A program made the position numbers and the translations under genes. The notes below the pieces were generated by a model, which did no database searches, was not told the origin of the DNA, and saw only the letters and a list, made by a program, of their open reading frames with translations. This document shows, piece after piece, positions 6,345 through 64,000 of a DNA stretch of 64,000 nucleotides. How positions within the stretch are numbered: the stretch's first letter is position 1; each line of letters opens with the position of its first letter. Origin of the DNA: Gloeomargaritales cyanobacterium VI4D9 (GTDB lineage Bacteria > Cyanobacteriota > Cyanobacteriia > Gloeomargaritales > Gloeomargaritaceae); the NCBI GenBank assembly GCA_927797885.1, contig OV696605.1, positions 1,463,157-1,527,156 of the forward strand, read 5' to 3'.

Positions 6345-6446
6345 TATAGCAATCCTAAATAAGAATGGAACAGGGGTCGCAGGGGCACCGCCCCCGTCTC
6401 TGGTTCTGGGAAATTTGTGTTCGTTAATCAAATAGGATTGCTATAT
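6345..6446 (+). repeat. MITE-like element, family A, complete copy
   Basis: Ends are TATAGCAATCCTA and the inverted TAGGATTGCTATA; total about 102 bp. The core reads GAACAGGGGTCGCAGGGGC, ACCGCCCCCGTC, TCTGGTTCTGGG, with an internal GC-rich inverted repeat. Its right end lies only about four bases before the ATG of the coiled-coil gene at 6450. Confidence 0.85.
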
Positions 6447-6449
6447 ATT

Positions 6450-7237: not shown

Positions 7238-7586
7238 ATCGTAAAAAATACTGACAATTATTATACAGTTACTATACTTACACAACACTTAGTATTGAAA
7301 ATAAACGGCAAGGGCAGGAAAATCACTCAGAAAATGGCACAAAGACTAGGAATTTCTGGGAACTTGGACGCACCCACCCCCGTCCATCAGCATTAACCGT
7401 TTCTCTGGCTTTTGCGTCTGGCTCCTCAATGCTCCCAAAACCAGGGGATGCGGTCGGGTGATTCCTATCACATGGTTGATTAACTGGGCGTGATTATACT
7501 AATTGGTGTGATCTATTTGGTCATTACCAAATGGTATAAGTTCCACCCTCATCTGTAACATCCTCTTTCCCTCTGGACTAACGATT
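7238..7586 (+). promoter_or_regulatory. Upstream region of the hps operon with an inverted-repeat operator candidate
   Basis: 350 bases without a gene. About 55-70 bases before the hpsA start there is a perfect inverted repeat, ATTTGGT (7515-7521) and ACCAAAT (7526-7532) with a four-base gap, followed at once by TATAAG (7535-7540), a plausible -10 box. TGTGATCT (7506-7513) just upstream equals one half of a CRP-type site, but the second half is poor. No good -35 box is seen, so an activator-dependent promoter is likely. The rest of the gap shows nothing I recognise. Confidence 0.4.
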
Positions 7587-10500
7587 ATGTCTCATCCTCA
7601 TTCTCGTCAGAAGCGTCGCTCCCTGCCTCGGTTCCGTCCGGGGATTGTGTCTTGGTTGCTGGGAGCCTATTATCGGGGTCAAAAAAATAGCGGGTTTATC
7701 CTACCCACGGCGACCCTGCTGATTGTCGTAGCTTTTTTAATCATGATCAGTCTGCTGGCTCGGACGGCGAACCGGGTGGCGCTGGTTTCCGGACAAAGGG
7801 AACGGATTGCGGTGGAAGGCCCCTCGGCGGAGTCGGTGGATCGGGCACGGGCGAAAATTGAATTTTTGTTTACACGGGAGAAAGAACTTCCCACAAACCC
7901 GCTAGAAGACACTATTGAAGACTTTCTAGGCAATCGGCAACGGGATCTCGCAACCAAGCAGGTTGTTGCGCCTCGGAAACTGGATGACATCTATACTCTA
8001 CCTGATGAAAACCGTTGTCAGGCACAGAATGGGGATTGTGTAACTACTGGCGGAGCTTTTACGCCGGATGGGATTGCGCCCACTTGGTCCTATCGGGTGG
8101 ATTTGAATGGGAATGGGACGGTGGATGACCCGACGGACGGGATAGCGGTTTATAGCATTCTGGGGCGGGTGTTTCGGGATGGTAAGAGTGCTGTGCCGGT
8201 ATCTGATCCAGGCAAGACACATCTAACAAAGCGGCAGGATCGGGCTGCTAATTTTCTGGTGAATAATGCGCCTACCAAGGCGGAATCACCGGATGAGTTT
8301 TGTGAAGGTGCTTTGAGCGGTACTGTAGATGGGAATACAGGGCGTTTTTTGACGGGGAGTAGTGCGGAAGAACTCAAGAATTTTCAGATATATGCGCTGA
8401 CAATTCCCAACCGTCAAAATGATGCGACGCTGACCAGTAATGCGGTGGTATTTCAACAGGATCGCCGGTTTACGGGGGCGAATAAGTGGGGGGCGTATTT
8501 CCGCTATGACTTGGAGATATTCCCGGGGCCGCAATTTAACTGGAATGGGGCGATGCACACGGAAGGCTCGCTCTTTATTACTTCGGGTGGCCCAGGGTTT
8601 AACAGTTATTTGATCAGTGCGCCCAATTCGTGCTATTTCCTGCCGTCGGTCAACTCGCAGATTTCGGCACGGGGTCTGTTTATGACGGGTACCGTCCGGG
8701 ATGGCAATAATAATCCTGGTAACTCGGTGGTACATTTACAACCGGCGGGACGGATTGCGCCAACCCAATTGATTCAGTTATCAACCACTGGGGGATTTCC
8801 GAATCCAACCGGGCCAGGTACCTTTGCTAGCCAGGATTCGGTACTCGACAGATTTGTGCCAGAAGATTTGGCAATGGATCCGCTGTATTTGATCACTAAT
8901 AATTTACCAGTGGCTCGTAGGCGGGAAGGGGGAAGCGAGAGCTATAGCACCTATAAAGACCCGAACTGGGGGGGAGCCTTGGCTTCCCGGATTCAGGTGG
9001 ACAAGTGTGAAGCCCCGCCCTATGTGGATGACACGTTCCGGGCGGATGATCGCCTGGGGCCGAAACCCTCTTACGCCCGGGGGAGTTGCGATGGGGCGGA
9101 AACTTGGGAAAGCCTGGGGAAAGCGGGTGACCCGATCACTGGGAAACCGGAGTGGACAAGTAATAACCCGCCAGCGGATGCCCCGGATGAATATGGTGTG
9201 GATGGGTACTGGGAACGGCGTGCCCTGGGTCAGGGGATGAAGGTGATCGTTGGTCAACGGCTGGAACTGGGTAATGTCGGGGTCTGGGGTGGTTGGCGGT
9301 CGTACTTCAACTTCATTGCCTCTTCTTGGAATGATGACTCCTGGCGGTTCTGGGCAGGTCTAGGCGGTTCGTTTGGATGGAGTCCAACAGCCAGAATTTA
9401 TCAACCCACCACGACTCCCTATTTTTCGGGAGCAGTGCCGCTATATAGTCAGGAAATTTTTGGGTTTTTGATGCGACCCCGGCCTACGATTGGGAATATT
9501 CCGGCTCCTGGGGCGGCAGACCCGCTCTATCCACCGGCGGTTTTGGCACCGGAGTTTGGGGGGACATCGCCATATAACTTTGCGGGGGTTCCGGCACCCA
9601 CATTTGAACTCAGTCGGTTGAATTTACAGTTGAACCGGCGCACCCAGCGGGACAATTTGGCGGCAGTGCAGGCGGCGGCGGTTTACCATCACAAGGGGAC
9701 ACCGGATCGCACATTGCCCGTGCTGTGTTTGTCGAGCACGATTCATCCGGGGACGGAGGCGAGTTATTTCAATAGCATTACGTTTGGGGACCCGGTGAGT
9801 CCGGCTTCTCCAACTGCCATTAACCAGATGACCCGCTATCCGAGTAGTAATGCCAACTTTGTCCGACCGCCTGGTTCCCAAGCCCTGTTTCCGCCTTCGG
9901 ACTTTTTCACGGGGCGGGGCACGGCGAATATGGAATACGGGAATGGCACCAACCCGGATAACCCCCCGTTTGAGGTGGCGGATTTTGAATCAGGGACGGC
10001 TCTGATGAAGGTGCTGACGAATTTGGCACAGTTTGCTGGTGATCCGAGTGGGGCGTTTCCCCCGTTGCAGGCACCGCCGGGGAACAGTCAGGTGTATCCC
10101 GACCCGGTGCTGACCATGTGGGGGGATTATTCTAACCTGCGCCGCACCTTAACCACCTTGGAGACGGGTGGAAGCTACGCTGACCTCTCCCCCGCTGACC
10201 AAGCTAATCTGCACACGGCGGGCTGTACGATGAGCCTGTTGGCAACGAATGTGCATTGGTATTTGGACTGGGGGTATTTCGGGACGGGGAATGATTTTTA
10301 TCGCAGTAAGAATGGTCAAGAGCCGTTTAATCTTGTCCCCACTGTGCCGCCCTTGGGTACGGATGACGGTTCCTCACCGAATATCCGCACTGACTTGCAA
10401 CGGTTGGCTCATGCCATGCGGCAATTGCAGGATGGCATTTTTAACGAGGCTGTGGGTAATTATGAAGTTGGTTACGGGATTTTGAACTTTGTTCGGCTGA

Positions 10501-12965
10501 ACGATAGTGCTGGGGCTTGTACACCGATAACGAGCATCAACGCCAACTGTTACAACGTGCCTGCGGAGTATTACATTGCGGCTTTGGCGAGGATTCGGGA
10601 TGCTCAACCTTTCAGCACTGCAACCAATTCGCCCTACCAGCAGTGGAATCGGTTGGTGTATCTGGCTCGGATGTTGAATACCCGGTTGCAGATTGTGCGG
10701 GATCGCACCTACGGGTTCCGGGAGTATGTGCCGGGGCAGTGGATCGGAGTGGAGACGGTGCCGACCAATGATCCAGGTAATGGGATTGACCAGGCAACAG
10801 GGACGCTCCGCCCCAATCGCCAACGCTTGGCGTACACCATCAGGACACCGTTTACAGGACCCTACACCCTCGGACAAACCGTGAACCTGCCCTGCGACCT
10901 GAGTTTGGCAGATATTGACTACTTTGGGTACAAAAAACCCTCTGCTCTGAATCCAGTCAATCCGAATGACCAATTGGTAGAGCGGGAGATGGTCGCCCTT
11001 GCCCGGCTGTGTCCCACCCAGCCCAAGTACCCATCCTTGTATTACCTGTTCCCAGGGGATTTGAATTCCACCGGGGAGGTGGATGGGGCAGATAATCACG
11101 GTCACGATGGCACTTCCGGGATCAACCGGCGTAATAGCAGTGACCCCAGCCCCTACAACCAGCCCAGCGGCAGTGCGGGGAACAATCAGGAATCCTTCTC
11201 CGAACCCTACGTCCTGAGCCGTTACATTGCTGAGGATGCGAATGACCTGGCGACCTATGAGGCGGTTAAATTAGATGATTTGAATGAATTACGCTTGCAA
11301 AACCGTCAACCAGGTCCTACTCGCACATGGAAACTGCCAGTCCTCAATCTGGTAAATAATCAGCCAGTGACCACTACCGACCTCTACCAACGGGAAACGG
11401 ATTTGATTGTCAGTGAATCCCAACCGGCCAATGCCCACGCCAACTTGTCTGCCTATCGCACCGGTTTAGCGGAAAAAGCCCTCTATGACGGGCGGCAATT
11501 GCAGATGGTGCGGGTGATGGACTTCGACATTGACCTCCTGCGGCGGGTGAATCAGGCACCGGAATCCTTTGAGGGCGATGCCTGGTTGACGGTGGGGCAG
11601 GTGGCGACGGCGACGACCAAACCCATTGCGGGGGGGATCATCTACGCCTTCCGGGAGGATGCCAAGCGGGAAGATGCCCTCCTGCGTCCAGCGAATGCGG
11701 ATTGGCCTGCCTATGAAACCTCATGGAAAGCGAATTTTACCGATGGGCCGCCGGTGGCGTTGCAGATGAACCCCGACCCCCGCACTCCCTCTGATCCACC
11801 TACCACGCCGGTGAATATCAGCGGTAAACCGGTGGACTACTACGCTGACCCAGATCGCCGGGTGCATGGGTTCCGCTTGATGAATGGCAATGATGTGAGC
11901 CGGGTGGGTGTGACTCCGCCAGAACGGAATATCTTTGGGATGAGCTTCATCACCGATAACCCGGTCTATATCATGACCCAGTTGGCACGGGGGATCAGTG
12001 GGTTCAACCTGCACATGAGACCGGCTGGCGGGGTCGTGCAGGAATTTAATACTCTACTGCCGTTCCCGTACAACTTTAACCAGTTCTATGTGAACCGCAC
12101 CAACCGTGATTTAGGGTTTGCGACGGCGACGGGGGATACGTGGCGACCGGTGGAAATTCTGGCGGATGCGATTACCCTGATTACCCACAATTTCTGTGAT
12201 GCTTATCAGGAAAATGGCATTCGGAATATCCGCAATACGACGAGCAACCTAAACATTCCCGGCAAGGACAACGGGGGTACGGGTGCCAATGGGGACTGCA
12301 ATGGCTCTGCCAATGGGGGGCCTTCTGCCCGGAACACGACTGCGATTACCAACCCGGGGGTTGCAGGGTTTGCCACTCCTGAGGCACTGCCAAGAGACCG
12401 CTGGGCACGGGAACATCCCTACGACGAGGCATCACCAATCATTGTGGGGAGTGATGGGAGCCATCGGACGCAGACTACTGGGACACAGGCGATTGTCCCC
12501 CTGCTGAACTATCAGGGCATTAATCTCCGAGCCGCAGTTCCCCTTCGCAACACGGACTACCAGGTGAATGCGGTGATTGTGAGTGGGATTGTACCATCCC
12601 GGCGGCAACAACCCTATGGTGGTCTGCACAATTTCCCCCGCTTCATCGAAACGGGTAACGCTTTGACCATTCAGGGTTCCTTGTTGCAGTTGGGCTTTAG
12701 CAATTACGCTACGGCTCCCTTCGATTTCGACTCCTTTGAGCGCGGCCAATTCCCATTGGCGGCAGAATTCATTCCCTACTATGGTCCCCCGACCCGTTTG
12801 TGGGGGTATGACCCTGGGTTGCAGTACGCTCCGGCGGGGCCTGTGGCGCAACGGTTCATCAACCCCTCCAACGCCCGGAATGAATACTTCCTGGAATTGA
12901 CGGCGAATGACCCCTACACCTGTCAGATGAAGCGGTTTGTTGTCCCCGGTATAACGTGTCCCTAA
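7587..12965 (+). CDS. hpsA: Hormogonium polysaccharide pseudopilin-like protein HpsA
   Basis: 1792 residues, matching the very large HpsA proteins encoded first in cyanobacterial hps loci, where they are needed with minor pseudopilins for polysaccharide secretion and gliding of hormogonia. Seen: a basic N-terminus, then one hydrophobic helix (GFILPTATLLIVVAFLIMI, about residues 36-54) with a prepilin-like start, then about 1700 residues of extracellular-type sequence rich in Asn, Gly, Pro and Tyr with scattered paired Cys. The motifs GPQFNWNGAMHTEG and FQQDRRFTGANKWGAYFRYDLE (in part) are typical of the family. It is followed by hpsB, hpsC and hpsD with gaps of 14-21 bases, so a single operon is clear. 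The ATG at 7587 has no strong ribosome-binding site but no better start exists. Confidence 0.9.
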   Translation: MSHPHSRQKRRSLPRFRPGIVSWLLGAYYRGQKNSGFILPTATLLIVVAFLIMISLLARTANRVALVSGQRERIAVEGPSAESVDRARAKIEFLFTREKELPTNPLEDTIEDFLGNRQRDLATKQVVAPRKLDDIYTLPDENRCQAQNGDCVTTGGAFTPDGIAPTWSYRVDLNGNGTVDDPTDGIAVYSILGRVFRDGKSAVPVSDPGKTHLTKRQDRAANFLVNNAPTKAESPDEFCEGALSGTVDGNTGRFLTGSSAEELKNFQIYALTIPNRQNDATLTSNAVVFQQDRRFTGANKWGAYFRYDLEIFPGPQFNWNGAMHTEGSLFITSGGPGFNSYLISAPNSCYFLPSVNSQISARGLFMTGTVRDGNNNPGNSVVHLQPAGRIAPTQLIQLSTTGGFPNPTGPGTFASQDSVLDRFVPEDLAMDPLYLITNNLPVARRREGGSESYSTYKDPNWGGALASRIQVDKCEAPPYVDDTFRADDRLGPKPSYARGSCDGAETWESLGKAGDPITGKPEWTSNNPPADAPDEYGVDGYWERRALGQGMKVIVGQRLELGNVGVWGGWRSYFNFIASSWNDDSWRFWAGLGGSFGWSPTARIYQPTTTPYFSGAVPLYSQEIFGFLMRPRPTIGNIPAPGAADPLYPPAVLAPEFGGTSPYNFAGVPAPTFELSRLNLQLNRRTQRDNLAAVQAAAVYHHKGTPDRTLPVLCLSSTIHPGTEASYFNSITFGDPVSPASPTAINQMTRYPSSNANFVRPPGSQALFPPSDFFTGRGTANMEYGNGTNPDNPPFEVADFESGTALMKVLTNLAQFAGDPSGAFPPLQAPPGNSQVYPDPVLTMWGDYSNLRRTLTTLETGGSYADLSPADQANLHTAGCTMSLLATNVHWYLDWGYFGTGNDFYRSKNGQEPFNLVPTVPPLGTDDGSSPNIRTDLQRLAHAMRQLQDGIFNEAVGNYEVGYGILNFVRLNDSAGACTPITSINANCYNVPAEYYIAALARIRDAQPFSTATNSPYQQWNRLVYLARMLNTRLQIVRDRTYGFREYVPGQWIGVETVPTNDPGNGIDQATGTLRPNRQRLAYTIRTPFTGPYTLGQTVNLPCDLSLADIDYFGYKKPSALNPVNPNDQLVEREMVALARLCPTQPKYPSLYYLFPGDLNSTGEVDGADNHGHDGTSGINRRNSSDPSPYNQPSGSAGNNQESFSEPYVLSRYIAEDANDLATYEAVKLDDLNELRLQNRQPGPTRTWKLPVLNLVNNQPVTTTDLYQRETDLIVSESQPANAHANLSAYRTGLAEKALYDGRQLQMVRVMDFDIDLLRRVNQAPESFEGDAWLTVGQVATATTKPIAGGIIYAFREDAKREDALLRPANADWPAYETSWKANFTDGPPVALQMNPDPRTPSDPPTTPVNISGKPVDYYADPDRRVHGFRLMNGNDVSRVGVTPPERNIFGMSFITDNPVYIMTQLARGISGFNLHMRPAGGVVQEFNTLLPFPYNFNQFYVNRTNRDLGFATATGDTWRPVEILADAITLITHNFCDAYQENGIRNIRNTTSNLNIPGKDNGGTGANGDCNGSANGGPSARNTTAITNPGVAGFATPEALPRDRWAREHPYDEASPIIVGSDGSHRTQTTGTQAIVPLLNYQGINLRAAVPLRNTDYQVNAVIVSGIVPSRRQQPYGGLHNFPRFIETGNALTIQGSLLQLGFSNYATAPFDFDSFERGQFPLAAEFIPYYGPPTRLWGYDPGLQYAPAGPVAQRFINPSNARNEYFLELTANDPYTCQMKRFVVPGITCP

Positions 12966-12979
12966 TGGAGGTGGTCTGT

Positions 12980-13666
12980 ATGGTATCCAAGCGGTTTCAT
13001 GTTCACGGTGGGTTTAGCCTGATCGAGGCGCTGGTGGGGATTGCTATCGTGGGGGTGACGGCGGCCATGCTTCCCCCGATCTTGACCCTATCGGTGGCGG
13101 CTCGTGCCCAAAACCAACGGGTCGAACAGGCAACTCGGCTGGCACAGGGGCATCTGGATTTGGTGCGCCTGCGGATGGAACGGGGGCCAGCGGGACAACC
13201 GGCTTCGGTTTTTACCGCCGATATTGACCGGTTGGCACCCTTGGCGGGGGGCGCTTCGGTGGAAACGGTACCAGCCCCAGCGGCCAACGCCTTAAAGACG
13301 GCACCGTTTTGCGACCTGGATCACCCGACGACTCCGGTGGGGCCGCCCTGTCGGGTGGATATTGACCGGGATGGGCAGGCGGATTTTGGTCTGCAAGCCT
13401 TTCGGATTCGCCAGCGCATTTTCAATGGGGTGCCCATTTCTTTCGTTGTCGGGGTGCGGGTGTATCCCCGGGCGGTGGTACAGGGAACCTATACGGGGGC
13501 GTTGGGGATTCAGCCAGCCCAGATGCGACTGGGGGCACCGGAGACGGCCAGCAACCCCTTAGCGGTGCAGTACAGTGCGGTTCTCCTGCCAGATTCGCCT
13601 GGCTCCCTGGGGTCGTTTTGCCGCACCTTGGGGGGAAGTGACACCGCTTGTGCGGTCGTGGATTAA
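12980..13666 (+). CDS. hpsB: Minor pseudopilin HpsB
   Basis: 228 residues. A short basic leader ends in GG, followed by FSLIEALVGIAIVGV: the prepilin peptidase motif (cleavage after Gly11, Phe at +1, Glu at +5) and the N-terminal hydrophobic helix of type IV pilin-like proteins. The remainder is a globular periplasmic domain with a few Cys (CDLDHP, CRVD, CRTLGG, CAVVD). I chose the ATG at 12980 because GGAGGTGG ends five bases upstream; an upstream GTG at 12956 would overlap hpsA and lengthen the leader. Its place after hpsA supports assembly of a pseudopilus with HpsA, HpsC and HpsD at the inner membrane. Confidence 0.85.
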   Translation: MVSKRFHVHGGFSLIEALVGIAIVGVTAAMLPPILTLSVAARAQNQRVEQATRLAQGHLDLVRLRMERGPAGQPASVFTADIDRLAPLAGGASVETVPAPAANALKTAPFCDLDHPTTPVGPPCRVDIDRDGQADFGLQAFRIRQRIFNGVPISFVVGVRVYPRAVVQGTYTGALGIQPAQMRLGAPETASNPLAVQYSAVLLPDSPGSLGSFCRTLGGSDTACAVVD

Positions 13667-16018: not shown

Positions 16019-16242
16019 CATAGCAATTCCATTTAGGGCAACTCTATTTATTGATTTTTGCACTTACATGACAGGCTTGGAAGCTCCATTCTCTCGTTGG
16101 CAATTATCAATAACCCAGGGGTCATTCTCAATAGTTATGAATTAATAGAGGTGCCCTTTAATTAATCAACAGAAGTCCCCCAGAACTAAGGACGGGGGTG
16201 GTGCCCTGCGACCCTATTCCGTTCTCATTTAGGATTGCTATA
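16019..16242 (-). repeat. Family A element interrupted by a family C element
   Basis: The outer element starts ATAGCAATTCCATTTA and ends TTTAGGATTGCTATA with the A core (CAGAACTAAGGACGGGGG, GTGCCCTGCGACC) between about 16158 and 16242. Within its left arm a complete family C element (16035-16157) is inserted, flanked on both sides by TTTA. So C jumped into A here, with an apparent four-base target duplication. Confidence 0.7.
16035..16157 (+). repeat. MITE-like element, family C copy 2 (nested)
   Basis: Begins GGGCAACTCTATTTATTG and ends TTAATAGAGGTGCCC. The interior (CTTACATGACAGGCTTGG, AGCTCCATTCTCTCGTTGG, CCCAGGGGTCATTCTCAATA) matches the copy at 2602-2720 with scattered substitutions. 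Flanked by TTTA on each side within a family A element. Confidence 0.75.
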
Positions 16243-21056: not shown

Positions 21057-21125
21057 CGCAGGTGCTTCTTTTACGGGGGCGGTGCCCCTGCGACCCCCTG
21101 TTTCATTCTCATTTAGGATTGCTAT
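21046..21125 (-). repeat. Family A element, truncated copy
   Basis: Right-hand part of a family A element: CACCGCAGGTGCTTCTTTTA, CGGGGGCGGTGCCCC, then CATTTAGGATTGCTATA. It is the same sub-type as the copies at 26257 and 34260, with the GCTTCTTTTACGG insertion in the core. It truncates the 5' side of the IS1 remnant. Confidence 0.7.
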
Positions 21126-21187
21126 AGAGAACCCAAAAATAATCAGAGCTTAACTTCTCTCAAATAAATCGAGATAAAAATTGGTAG

Positions 21188-22340: not shown

Positions 22341-22443
22341 TATAGAGCAATCCTAAATGAAAATGGAATAGGGGTCGCAGGGGCACCGCCCCCGTCCTTG
22401 GTTCTAGGAAATTTTTGTTGGTTAATCAAATAGGATTGCTATA
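22341..22443 (+). repeat. MITE-like element, family A, complete copy
   Basis: 103 bp, from TATAGAGCAATCCTAAATG (one or two changes from the family end) to TAGGATTGCTATA. The core GGGGTCGCAGGGGC, ACCGCCCCCGTCC, TTGGTTCTAGG is present, and the GC-rich centre can fold on itself. It lies in the gap between the IS630 copy and the gene at 22571. Confidence 0.85.
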
Positions 22444-22447
22444 GTAT

Positions 22448-26256: not shown

Positions 26257-26391
26257 TATAGCAATCCTAAATAAGAATGGAACAGGGGTCGCAGGGGCAC
26301 CGCCCCCGTCAAAGAAGCACCTGTATGGTTCTGGAAAATTTTTGTATGCCTACGGCACGCAAGCTAGTGTAAATCAAGTAGGATTGCTATA
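26257..26391 (+). repeat. MITE-like element, family A, long sub-type
   Basis: 135 bp with ends TATAGCAATCCTAAATAAG and TAGGATTGCTATA. The core carries the extra TCAAAGAAGCACCTGTATGG and CCTACGGCACGCAAGCTAG segments also seen at 34260-34400. It truncates the IS630 remnant. Its right end is 75 bases before the pyrG start, so it lies in or next to that promoter. Confidence 0.85.
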
Positions 26392-34259: not shown

Positions 34260-34400
34260 TATAGCAATCCTAAATGAGAATGGAACAGAGGGTCGCAGGG
34301 GCACCGCCCCCGTAAAAGAAGCACCTGCGGTGTATGGTTCTGAAAAATTTTTGTATGCCTACGGCACGCAAGCTAATGCAAATCAAGTAGGATTGCTATA
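34260..34400 (+). repeat. MITE-like element, family A, long sub-type with duplicated left end
   Basis: 141 bp, from TATAGCAATCCTAAATGAG to TAGGATTGCTATA. Immediately left, CATAGCAATCCT repeats the terminal ten bases once more. The core has the AAAAGAAGCACCTGCGG and CCTACGGCACGCAAGCTAA segments of the long sub-type (compare 26257-26391). The remaining bases of the 34152-34597 gap contain nothing I can support. Confidence 0.85.
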
Positions 34401-52384: not shown

Positions 52385-52555
52385 GGGCACCCCTATGAAT
52401 TCCTAGCTATTGACAACGACCCCTGCGCTATTAATAATTGCCGAGGAAAGAATGGGGCTATCAGACCTGCTATAGCAATCCTACTTGATTAGTGAACAGA
52501 GATTCCCCAGAACCAAGGGCGCTACGACCGCTAACTTTGAATTGATAGAGGTGCC
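52385..52555 (-). repeat. Family C element with a family A fragment inserted
   Basis: Outer ends GGGCACCCCTATGAATTC and TTGATAGAGGTGCC. The C interior is inverted relative to 2602-2720 (ACGACCCCTGCGCTATTAAT, GGAAAGAATGGGGC). At 52471 it is broken by TATAGCAATCCTACTTG, followed by a short A core (CCCCAGAACCAAGGGCGC) up to about 52530, after which C resumes. So here A is inserted in C, the reverse of 16019-16242. Confidence 0.7.
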
Positions 52556-61566: not shown

Positions 61567-61625
61567 GCCAGGGATAAAATAGGACATTCCCAAGCCTTTT
61601 CACCCCATTTTTGAGGAGTTGCCCC

Positions 61626-61877
61626 ATGCGTCCCCACCCTTGGATGCTGACCACCCTATGCCTCACCGCTCTGACGGCTCCCGCCCTAGCGCAAACCCCC
61701 GCCAAAGTCACCACCAGTAATACCCCCATCACGGATCAGTTCAGAATCCCCCCCTTTCGGGATTACACCGGGGATGGGGTGCAAAACCTGGATGACATCC
61801 CCGCCCACCAAAAAAACTACAACAACTTGCTGAAACAATGGGCGGCGCGCATCAGCGGTACCGGTGGCTCCCTCTAA
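61626..61877 (+). CDS. Small secreted protein with dockerin-like calcium loop, paralogue 1
   Basis: 83 residues with a signal peptide (MRPHPWMLTTLCLTALTAPALAQ, cleavage after ALA). The mature part shares with the next gene the block FRIPPFRDYTGDGVQNLDDI, followed by PAHQKNYNNLLKQWAARIS. DYTGDGVQNLDD has Asp at positions 1, 5 and 12, with Gly-Asp-Gly in the middle, as in EF-hand-type loops of dockerins, so Ca2+ binding is likely. A stretch of about 30 residues in the paralogue is missing here. GAGGAG is nine bases upstream. Function unknown; I recall no described family. Confidence 0.7.
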   Translation: MRPHPWMLTTLCLTALTAPALAQTPAKVTTSNTPITDQFRIPPFRDYTGDGVQNLDDIPAHQKNYNNLLKQWAARISGTGGSL

Positions 61878-62076
61878 AGCCTTGACTTCTGGGACGAGAT
61901 TCGCCACACTCAAAGAAGAATTTCCCAGCCCCAGGTTATCACCAGGTTAAAGTTGGGAATTCGTTAGCCAAATCCTGGGTATTTCCTGCTAAAATTTGGT
62001 TAACTTCGCCACGAATTTTTGTGGTGGATTTCGGCTTCATCGCATCGAACTGTTTAACTGTTGAGGAGTTATGGCT

Positions 62077-62625
62077 ATGCGTCCCCAAATGTTATTTTCC
62101 TTGTCCGTAGCTGGCACAGTGCTGGCGGCGGCAATGGCTCCGGCGAGTGCCCAACCCGCCCCGAAACTGTACGACCCCCCGGTGATGACCACGACAGCGG
62201 CGAAAGCTGAGGCTTGGCCTCCTTTTACCAAGCCCTTCCTGTGGAATCAGCCCAAGACCACGATTCAGTTTCCCAAGCCCTCCTACTACGAGCATCCCTT
62301 CGCCATCGAGCGGAGTATGGAGCCGTTCAGAATTGGCATCAAGAAAGTCAGTGGTACCTCCGCTACCCCGGTGAGTGACAAGTTCCGCATCCCTCCTTTC
62401 CGGGATTACACCGGGGATGGGGTGCAAAACCTGGACGACATCCCTGCCCACCAAAAGAACTTTAACGATCAGTTGAAAAGGTGGGCTAGCACCATAAGCA
62501 CCTGCTCCAAACAACGGGGGGTGATGTTCCGGCTCGTGGGCAAAGAAGAAGTACCCATTCAAATCAACGGCGACCCCGGCAAGGTGCAGTTGAATGCCAA
62601 CAACGTTCCCGTCTGCCCCGGCTAA
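62077..62625 (+). CDS. Secreted protein with dockerin-like calcium loop, paralogue 2
   Basis: 182 residues. Signal peptide MRPQMLFSLSVAGTVLAAAM ending at ASA-Q. A middle segment unique to this copy (KLYDPPVMTTTAAKAEAWPP, FLWNQPKTTIQFPKPSYYEH, SMEPFRIG) precedes the block shared with 61626: KFRIPPFRDYTGDGVQNLDD, then IPAHQKNFNDQLKRWASTIS, then CSKQRGVMFRLVGKEEVPIQ and a C-terminal Cys (VCPG). Two Cys (about residues 147 and 180) may form a disulfide. I start at the second ATG (62077) because GAGGAG then lies at an eight-base distance and the product begins MRP like its paralogue. Both genes are probably exported and calcium-binding. Confidence 0.75.
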   Translation: MRPQMLFSLSVAGTVLAAAMAPASAQPAPKLYDPPVMTTTAAKAEAWPPFTKPFLWNQPKTTIQFPKPSYYEHPFAIERSMEPFRIGIKKVSGTSATPVSDKFRIPPFRDYTGDGVQNLDDIPAHQKNFNDQLKRWASTISTCSKQRGVMFRLVGKEEVPIQINGDPGKVQLNANNVPVCPG

Positions 62626-62653
62626 ATTGGGTTTTTAGTTTTAAATTTGCGTG

Positions 62654-62684
62654 GCTCCCTGGGCGACTGGGGAGCTTATTTTTT
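62654..62684 (+). terminator. Rho-independent terminator
   Basis: GCTCCC and GGGAGC form a six-pair stem around a ten-base loop, followed by TTATTTTTTAT. It begins 28 bases after the stop codon of the secreted-protein gene and closes that unit. Confidence 0.75.
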
Positions 62685-62803: not shown

Positions 62804-63556
62804 ATGTTAGAAGAAAGCACTTTATCGAGACTGTTGTTACTAAACTGTTCTCAGCGCAAGAAGTTTGATGAACGACTATTACCGGCAATCGAACGCTACG
62901 ATGGACCTGCCTACCGTGTATTGCGACGATACCTAAAACACAATTTAACCCCATCTGTTGATGTCAGAATTCTTTCGGGGAAGTACGGGTTAATCCCTGC
63001 TGATTACTATTTGCCGTACTATGATCGCAAGCTAACGAAGGGACAAGCCCAAAAATTACACTATCAGGTTATCACGGAATTAGAAGCAATTCTTAACAGA
63101 AAATCTTATACAAATCTTTTGATTTGCTTAGGAAAAGAGTATCTTGAAGTAATCTGTGACTATGAAACTATAATCCCAGATAGTTTACCAGTCCAAGTTG
63201 CCACTGGCGGAATTGGCAAAAAGCTGTCAGTTCTGTACAATTGGCTTTATGGAGGGTTCAGTTTGGAGACCAAGCAGGATTTGGCTTCTACGAAAGGAAC
63301 AGGTCGCATTAGAGGCGTTGAGGTGACTTTAACAGCAGAACAAGTCCTTGATGTTGCCAGACAGGCGCTCACCACCCAAGATGAGAGAGCCACCCGTTAC
63401 CAATCTTGGTATGTGCAGGTTGATGATCTGCGAGTAGCCCCAAAATGGTTGGTCAGTCAAATTACCGGATTGCCAGTGAACAAATTCCACACGGGTAGTG
63501 CAAAGAAATTATTAAGGGAACTAGGAATTTCAGTTCTTTTTGATGCACAGATTTAG
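62804..63556 (+). CDS. YaaA/DUF6884-like protein with C-terminal putative DNA-binding domain
   Basis: 250 residues. The N-terminal domain (about 10-150) reads LLLLNCSQRKKFDERLLPAI, then RILSGKYGLIPADYYLPYYDR. The Cys-Ser near the start followed by a Leu-Ser-x-Lys-Tyr-Gly-Leu motif is the pattern of the YaaA/DUF6884 group found near modified-DNA and defence genes. A linker with GTGRIRGVEVTLTAEQV leads to a C-terminal domain (about 190-250): SWYVQVDDLRVAPKWLVSQI, then TGLPVNKFHTGSAKKLLRELG, which looks like a small helical DNA-binding module also found in nuclease or defence contexts. The next gene starts 22 bases later and encodes a HerA-like protein. AT-richer than the rest of the window, suggesting transfer. 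Function inferred only. Confidence 0.6.
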   Translation: MLEESTLSRLLLLNCSQRKKFDERLLPAIERYDGPAYRVLRRYLKHNLTPSVDVRILSGKYGLIPADYYLPYYDRKLTKGQAQKLHYQVITELEAILNRKSYTNLLICLGKEYLEVICDYETIIPDSLPVQVATGGIGKKLSVLYNWLYGGFSLETKQDLASTKGTGRIRGVEVTLTAEQVLDVARQALTTQDERATRYQSWYVQVDDLRVAPKWLVSQITGLPVNKFHTGSAKKLLRELGISVLFDAQI

Positions 63557-63578
63557 TTGTTTACAGGAGAAATTAAAC

Positions 63579-64000
63579 ATGAAAAGTTTTTCAAGTGATG
63601 AGAATCTCTCAGTTAAGACAGTCGCCAATAGCAACAAGCAACTGGTTGTTGGCACGGTAATTTCTGATCAGGAGACCCCAACGTTTGAAACTGTCAGGAT
63701 TAAGTTGAAGGCGGGTCAAGATCTGAAGCCTGGAACGCTTGTTCGGGTTCCAGTTATGCGTAATGAACAAACTATTCTTATTGGACGGATTCGTAGTGCT
63801 TATGAATGTAATCCAAATGAGCGTGTGGAAAGCGTTGGCGTACGTGATGCTTTGAAAATACCAAAGATGCATCCGACAGAAGAACATAGCACAAGAATCT
63901 TTCGCTTAGCTGAGGCAGATTTAATTGAAGAGATTTTTAACCGGGAGTTTGTTGAAAATGGTGAAAAGAAAATAAAAACAGAAACAAGGGCACCTCAGAA
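63579..64000 (+). CDS. HAS-barrel domain protein, probable HerA-type ATPase (5' part only)
   Basis: The frame is open from the ATG at 63579 (AGGAGA eight bases upstream) to the window end, giving about 140 residues with no stop. The opening LVVGTVISDQETPTFETVRI, then LKPGTLVRVPVM, NEQTILIGRIRSAYECNPNE resembles the N-terminal HAS-barrel that precedes the RecA-like domain in HerA/FtsK-type DNA-translocating ATPases. The ATPase part, if present, lies beyond the window. Upstream partner: the YaaA-like gene 22 bases before. AT-rich codon use like its neighbour. HerA-like ATPases drive DNA processing with a nuclease partner, in repair or defence. Confidence 0.6.
   Translation, partial: MKSFSSDENLSVKTVANSNKQLVVGTVISDQETPTFETVRIKLKAGQDLKPGTLVRVPVMRNEQTILIGRIRSAYECNPNERVESVGVRDALKIPKMHPTEEHSTRIFRLAEADLIEEIFNREFVENGEKKIKTETRAPQ

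Follow-up and report, generated by a model that had tools for sequence, protein, structure and literature searches.

The two AT-rich genes that run off the right edge of the window, the 64,000-nucleotide stretch of DNA analysed here, are the first half of a four-gene operon encoding a DUF6884 protein, a HerA-type ATPase, a 539-aa NurA-fold protein and a TGT/DpdA-like transglycosylase. The operon, the domains of its products and the NurA fold are secure. Since likely enzymes of base replacement are paired in it with a HerA-NurA-type machine, the operon is probably a compact restriction-modification system that combines the two, a reading for which the module swaps described below are the chief functional evidence and which is given a probability of 0.68 (about 0.7 for a restriction-modification function as such). 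The substrate of the transglycosylase (DNA), the identity of the base, the protection conferred by the mark and an anti-phage role are inferred.

Layout of the operon and its surroundings

The initial annotation had described a gene pair with a 22-base gap, rich in AT and preceded by a terminator, and this is borne out by the open reading frames, the base composition and a hairpin upstream; both genes are real, but the pair is half of an operon of four. Given that the host assembly is a single contig (C1, 3.16 Mb, of which the window is C1:1463157-1527156), the operon could be completed beyond the window edge by extension in the genome.

62653-62676 (+): terminator-like hairpin, a 10-pair stem then a T run, closing the preceding gene
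62804-63556 (+): gene 1, DUF6884/YaaA-like (DpdC-like) protein, 250 aa, PF21818 match
63579-64000 in the window, C1:1526735-1528360 in full (+): gene 2, HerA-type hexameric ATPase/translocase, 541 aa, DUF87
C1:1528360-1529979 (+): gene 3, NurA-fold protein (AlphaFold2 model), 539 aa, its start overlapping the stop of the HerA gene
C1:1529990-1531036 (+): gene 4, TGT/DpdA-like transglycosylase, 348 aa, GTG start, PF01702
C1:1531019-1531125: MITE-like repeat at the right end of the operon

The ATG of gene 2 (63579) is preceded by AGGAG and follows the stop codon of gene 1 by 22 bases, and the ends of genes 2-4 overlap or nearly adjoin. Only four genes lie between the terminator and an IS630-type remnant found beyond the MITE-like repeat on the right, and no further enzyme domains were found in them with Pfam, PADLOC, NCBIfam or PHROGs models. 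The GC content of the module is 39.8%, against 53% for the window as a whole and a span of 42.4-57.1% across 5-kb windows. Terminator-like hairpins were found at 2 sites, against 0.6 expected in shuffles.

The MITE-like repeat that bounds the operon is about 107 bp long, has the ends TATAGCAATCCTA/TAGGATTGCTATA and is present in many copies, among them the following.

Window 6345-6449: MITE-like repeat
Window 16158-16242: MITE-like repeat
Window 21072-21126: MITE-like repeat
Window 22343-22447: MITE-like repeat
Window 26257-26309: MITE-like repeat
Window 34260-34314: MITE-like repeat
Window 52471-52516: MITE-like repeat
L003 4264-4365: MITE-like repeat

Tandem secreted-looking paralogues with a common FRIPPFRDYTGDGVQNLDDIPAHQKN segment (window 61611-61877 and 62071-62625) are present in all seven members of the genus. 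Downstream of the operon, two identical transposase genes of 330 aa lie about 6 kb apart (L002:11829-12821 and L002:18013-19005), and at about 27 kb downstream on C1 there is a gene for Cas12k (L003:13370-15175, +; NCBIfam NF038191, E 7e-202). With L003:5857-7522 and 7580-13271 it makes up a locus in which an integrase/TnsB-like transposase, split over two overlapping frames, lies nearby; the interval between Cas12k and transposase holds methyltransferase-like genes, a helicase and a MerR-like protein that includes a type I R-subunit-like part. From its gene content this locus looks like a type V-K CRISPR-associated transposon with restriction-like cargo.

The HerA-type ATPase and its NurA-fold partner

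The expectation of a HerA-like second gene was confirmed past the window edge: gene 2 matches DUF87/HerA (PF01935) above the cut-off with an E value of 1.4e-25, its Walker A (GTTGSGKS) and Walker B (VAVIDEAH) motifs are invariant across 10 loci, and its nearest solved structures are HerA proteins. The HAS-barrel that had been read into the opening of the gene is unconfirmed, no HAS-barrel family being matched. A nuclease or SIR2 protein had been envisaged as a further partner, of which a putative nuclease was found, as NurA-fold gene 3, but not the SIR2 protein; the YaaA-like protein, initially cast as the effector partner of HerA, probably loses this part to gene 3.

Gene 3 belongs to no sequence family in Pfam, PADLOC, NCBIfam or PHROGs, a PDB sequence search gave no useful match, and the NurA model PF09376, which the separate canonical NurA of the host matches at 4e-39, is not matched up to E 1. 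Comparison by hhalign with 20 cyanobacterial NurA proteins gave a signal no better than decoys, in a low-confidence alignment that sets DVSQ of gene 3 over DGSQ of NurA and DGSL over DGSL. An AlphaFold2 model from a four-sequence alignment was unusable (pLDDT 35), and one built on 11 sequences, three of them distant and with homologues down to 20-24% identity, reached a pLDDT of 77.2 and a pTM of 0.78. The best structural match of this model is NurA 2ygk (Z 19.7 over 292 residues); other NurA-type structures (9x1m, Z 15.0; 3taz, Z 14.5) and the TdpAB chain 8wfd_G (Z 13.4, with a structural link also to 8wet) come next, other RNase H-fold proteins trail at Z of about 10, and the top match in Foldseek is the Deinococcus NurA 7f6d_G (E 9.9e-4). 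Given the matches to 2ygk, 9x1m, 3taz and 7f6d_G, it is concluded from the model that gene 3 is a NurA-fold protein overlooked by sequence models. Residues D176, D256, D281, K330 and H509 are invariant in 11 diverse homologues and, with this fold and conserved acidic residues, gene 3 is a putative active nuclease. As sequence models miss the family, related systems have probably been overlooked.

As is proposed for the operon, the Tdp system of Thermus ties a HerA-type ring and a NurA-fold nuclease to modification of self DNA: TdpC is responsible for the modification and TdpAB, a HerA/NurA-like complex, spares phosphorothioated self DNA. The Tdp mark, however, is a backbone sulphur, whereas the TGT and DUF6884 proteins of the operon point to base replacement, and gene 3, with 539 residues against 358 in the Tdp counterpart, is about 11% identical to it over the aligned part. 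The SIR2-HerA and DUF4297-HerA systems also join a HerA ring to an effector, and the sequence matches of gene 2 include solved HerA chains; the operon, by contrast, has neither a SIR2 nor a DUF4297 partner, its effector being a NurA-fold nuclease, and it carries a base-modification pair of its own.

The HerA motor and the NurA fold are shared, too, with the HerA-NurA end-resection complex, and it is conceivable that the operon serves DNA repair (end resection), with its base-modification pair as an accessory. In archaea, end resection links HerA and NurA to Mre11 and Rad50 (PMC2288612, PMC5715905), and a variant of the operon in Aulosira, described below, has SbcCD-like genes. Such a role is highly improbable on two counts: a separate canonical NurA, present in roughly half of the phylum members sampled, is encoded by the host as well, so that the more diverged gene 3 is additional to it, and a repair gene would not be expected to be as rare, AT-rich and mobile as this operon. 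Degradation of foreign DNA, as in the restriction-modification reading, is preferred for this half of the operon; HerA-NurA of Thermococcus cuts both strands of dsDNA in vitro with ATP-driven translocation, and an antiviral role has been suggested for it (PMC12977600).

The DUF6884 protein and the transglycosylase

The first gene had been called YaaA/DUF6884-like, and rightly so: it matches Pfam DUF6884 (PF21818) at E 7.1e-11 and 42.8 bits, for a cut-off of 30, and YaaA (PF03883) weakly. Its motifs are CSQRKK and LSGKYGL; among 12 relatives compared, CxxxK is found in 11 and an LSAxxG-type motif in all, and the copy in the Poribacteria genome L058 is without the N-terminal motif. A C-terminal domain of about 85 aa (approximately residues 165-250) is conserved, is without a family match and may bind DNA, as the initial annotation had suggested. 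Of the PADLOC models, PDC-M57A is matched at E 6.2e-7 (27.8 bits), with no match to the M57 partner models in genes 2-4, and the DpdC model at only E 0.056; a PDB sequence search returned nothing useful. DpdC carries DUF6884 (PMC11888242), and gene 1 qualifies through PF21818 as the DpdC-type (DUF6884) component of a Dpd island. The Pfam curators place DUF6884 close to YaaA and suggest DNA binding, with flipping and recognition of damaged bases (PMC11701544). Because the operon also has a NurA-fold nuclease and a TGT, DUF6884 is probably to be placed on the modification side, as a modification enzyme acting with the TGT, not an effector paired to HerA.

Gene 4 has the domain of the TGT family (PF01702, 33.3 bits for a cut-off of 26.3), its two catalytic aspartates and its CxCxxC...H zinc site. 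It matches the archaeosine TGT structure 1iq8 at E 5.3e-11, D68, D223 and the zinc ligands C268/C270/C273 and H295 align to that structure, and these residues are invariant in 12 of 12 relatives. As an equivalog of DpdA the protein is rejected (NCBIfam NF041059, 27.3 bits against a 200-bit cut-off), and it is somewhat closer to the archaeosine tRNA-TGT model (42 bits), so that a tRNA substrate is possible. The TGT may then act on tRNA, other RNA or protein, and the operon would be an RNA-centred stress or abortive-infection module. This is decidedly unlikely, given that the machine it is partnered with is of the DNA-translocating and nuclease kind, that the alignment to the archaeosine TGT spans the catalytic part alone (chain residues 65-327 of 582) and that DUF6884 is a domain of the DNA-acting DpdC.

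With DNA as the presumed substrate, the TGT-family and DUF6884 (DpdC-type) enzymes of the operon are those shared with Dpd islands (dpdA-dpdK), consistent with 7-deazaguanine in DNA. In such islands DpdA inserts preQ0 and DpdC converts it to ADG, and 7-deazaguanines shield phage DNA (PMC12839542, PMC6884629). Nevertheless, the operon is not a Dpd island: these have up to eleven genes against four here, no model for DpdB, present in canonical islands, or for the dpdD-K products (helicases, phospholipase-like proteins) is matched among the four genes, the nuclease half is HerA-NurA and gene 4 lies far below the DpdA equivalog cut-off. BREX-Related Capture (BRC) systems share a HerA/FtsK translocase and, in a subset of loci, a TGT; however, they are without DpdC and are built on PglZ, BrxC-like DUF6079, DUF4007 and a STAND NTPase (PMC12839542), all absent from the four operon genes.

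The host is able to make preQ0, with QueC at C1:1206693, and QueC is present in 9 of 9 module genomes checked. Given that 93 of 98 cyanobacteria have QueC, its co-occurrence is worthless as evidence and was rejected as support. On haloarchaeal plasmids (L025:2447-9915 and L021:5916-12707), two TGT-type genes and a BREX-type ATP-binding protein lie near preQ0 biosynthesis genes (queC, folE, queE, queD-like) or a queuosine precursor transporter, possibly another 7-deazaguanine defence cluster.

Distribution, exchange of modules and proposed function

A relative of gene 4 was found in five of 386 cyanobacterial genomes, in one as a contig-edge fragment (G118, L008/L012), and the operon is carried by about 1% of cyanobacteria. 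It is complete, with identical order and strand, in nine genomes of Cyanobacteria, Poribacteria and Latescibacteria: the window genome, its sister species G085, Tychonema, two Roseofilum, Oscillatoriales USR001, the Poribacteria MAG L014, Latescibacteria L015 and Poribacteria L058; a tenth genome (L017) has genes 2-4 without DUF6884. The initial annotation had staked its proposal of a defence or DNA-modification module on a RecA-like ATPase and on a place outside the core genome: the ATPase exists, the operon is sporadic rather than core, and a module of this kind fits the four genes with their HerA, NurA fold and TGT.

The flanks of the operon differ between genomes, except for a left flank common to G085 and the window genome. 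In four of the six other genus members (G241, G536, G537, G538) the same upstream gene has no operon downstream, and in G539 the contig ends at this gene. In G085 the MITE-like repeat flanks the operon on both sides, whilst in the window genome it is found on the right. Trees built for genes 1, 2 and 3 place the Latescibacteria copy amid those of Poribacteria, with some low support values, as horizontal transfer would give. No relatives of gene 3 were found on plasmids or, in a scan with gene 3 alone, in viral contigs, and no consistent defence-gene neighbourhood surrounds the operon copies.

The IS630 remnant and the MITE-like repeats at the operon ends are what might be seen if unrelated genes had ended up side by side by chance or decay. 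This reading is refuted by conservation and its probability is close to nil: the order is kept in nine genomes of three phyla, the frames are open, the catalytic residues are intact and, between the sister species, dN of the operon genes is well below dS. Between the window genome and G085, dS is 0.011 for gene 3, 0.039 for HerA, 0.11 for TGT and 0.14 for DUF6884, against 0.13-0.23 for three flanking genes; the values of genes 2 and 3, far below their surroundings, suggest that these genes were recently exchanged or gene-converted. In protein sequence DUF6884 is the fastest to diverge, a pattern that a specificity component could show; this is only a lead.

The two halves of the operon are also found apart. 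At three of three distant loci (L048, L057 and L062; HerA 32-36% and gene-3-like proteins 20-24% identical), the HerA and NurA-like pair lies beside a divergently adjacent C5-cytosine DNA methyltransferase, and no TGT or DUF6884 was seen there. The methyltransferase matches PF00145 at L048 (E 2.3e-54) and L057 (1e-79) and was identified from motifs at L062, where a Vsr model match lies beyond it. Family-less proteins on the far side of the methyltransferase (L057:4115-4762 and L062:3384-4226) are a possible extra component. On plasmid6 of Aulosira laxa, DUF6884 (49%) and TGT (63% identical) stand at both ends of a gene set that encloses a sigma-like protein, an M78 peptidase, a weak HerA-like ATPase, an SbcD-type phosphoesterase and an SbcC/LmuB-like SMC protein. 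DUF6884 adjoins TGT on a Haladaptatus plasmid, where the ATPase beside the pair was rejected as a HerA, being GHKL-type, and adjoins a DpdA-like protein, recognised by eye, on the phage contig L064. L058 carries, immediately upstream of the operon, a cassette that joins DUF6884 to a true NurA (PF09376, E 8.4e-9) and HerA. These reciprocal swaps, of which the independent ones are few, indicate that the marking half and the DNA-degrading half can each be exchanged, which is what restriction-modification would lead one to expect. It is somewhat favoured that one HerA and NurA-fold machine is reused with exchangeable marks, base replacement by 7-deazaguanine in this operon and methylation of cytosine at C5 in its relatives, and that the TGT and DUF6884 pair is reused by an Mre11/Rad50-like plasmid machine.

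A TGT 83% identical to gene 4 is encoded, without the other three genes, on the IMG/VR contig L063, which is phage-like (head and terminase-like genes recognised by eye); just upstream of it, L063:2045-7323 encodes repeated CRISPR type IV/RAMP-like proteins and two PAPS-reductase-like genes, also recognised by eye. Phage possession of this TGT, and of the DpdA/DUF6884 pair of L064, would be in keeping with a modification-dependent (type IV-like) restriction or editing system, in which TGT and DUF6884 target foreign DNA or recognise 7-deazaguanine marks of phages, and HerA-NurA destroys DNA with the mark instead of DNA without it, as would the base flipping and recognition proposed for DUF6884/YaaA (PMC11701544). 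This is nonetheless unlikely: the HerA/NurA-like pair beside a plain C5-methyltransferase, in three of three cases, is the usual restriction-modification layout, and a phage with TGT alone is what the copying of a host mark would look like, and fits escape by that route better.

Joining HerA-NurA degradation to Dpd marking, the following model is proposed for a restriction-modification system. Gene 4 would swap guanine in host DNA for the precursor of a 7-deazaguanine, the likeliest being preQ0 supplied by the host's queuosine pathway, and DUF6884 would finish the inserted base, as DpdC turns dPreQ0 into dADG, with the C-terminal domain of gene 1 perhaps helping to pick the modification site. 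The HerA ring would thread dsDNA into the NurA-fold nuclease, such that marked DNA is spared and unmarked phage or plasmid DNA is degraded.

No description of HerA and NurA with DpdA or TGT as one system was found in the open-access literature, in which coverage is incomplete. The four-gene system is apparently undescribed and, if the proposal is true, it is a minimal 7-deazaguanine restriction system. Gene 3 gives a name to a NurA-fold family invisible to sequence models, the reciprocal swaps amount to a natural experiment in the recognition of different self-marks by a degrading machine, and the reach of HerA-NurA would extend from repair to mark-guided defence.
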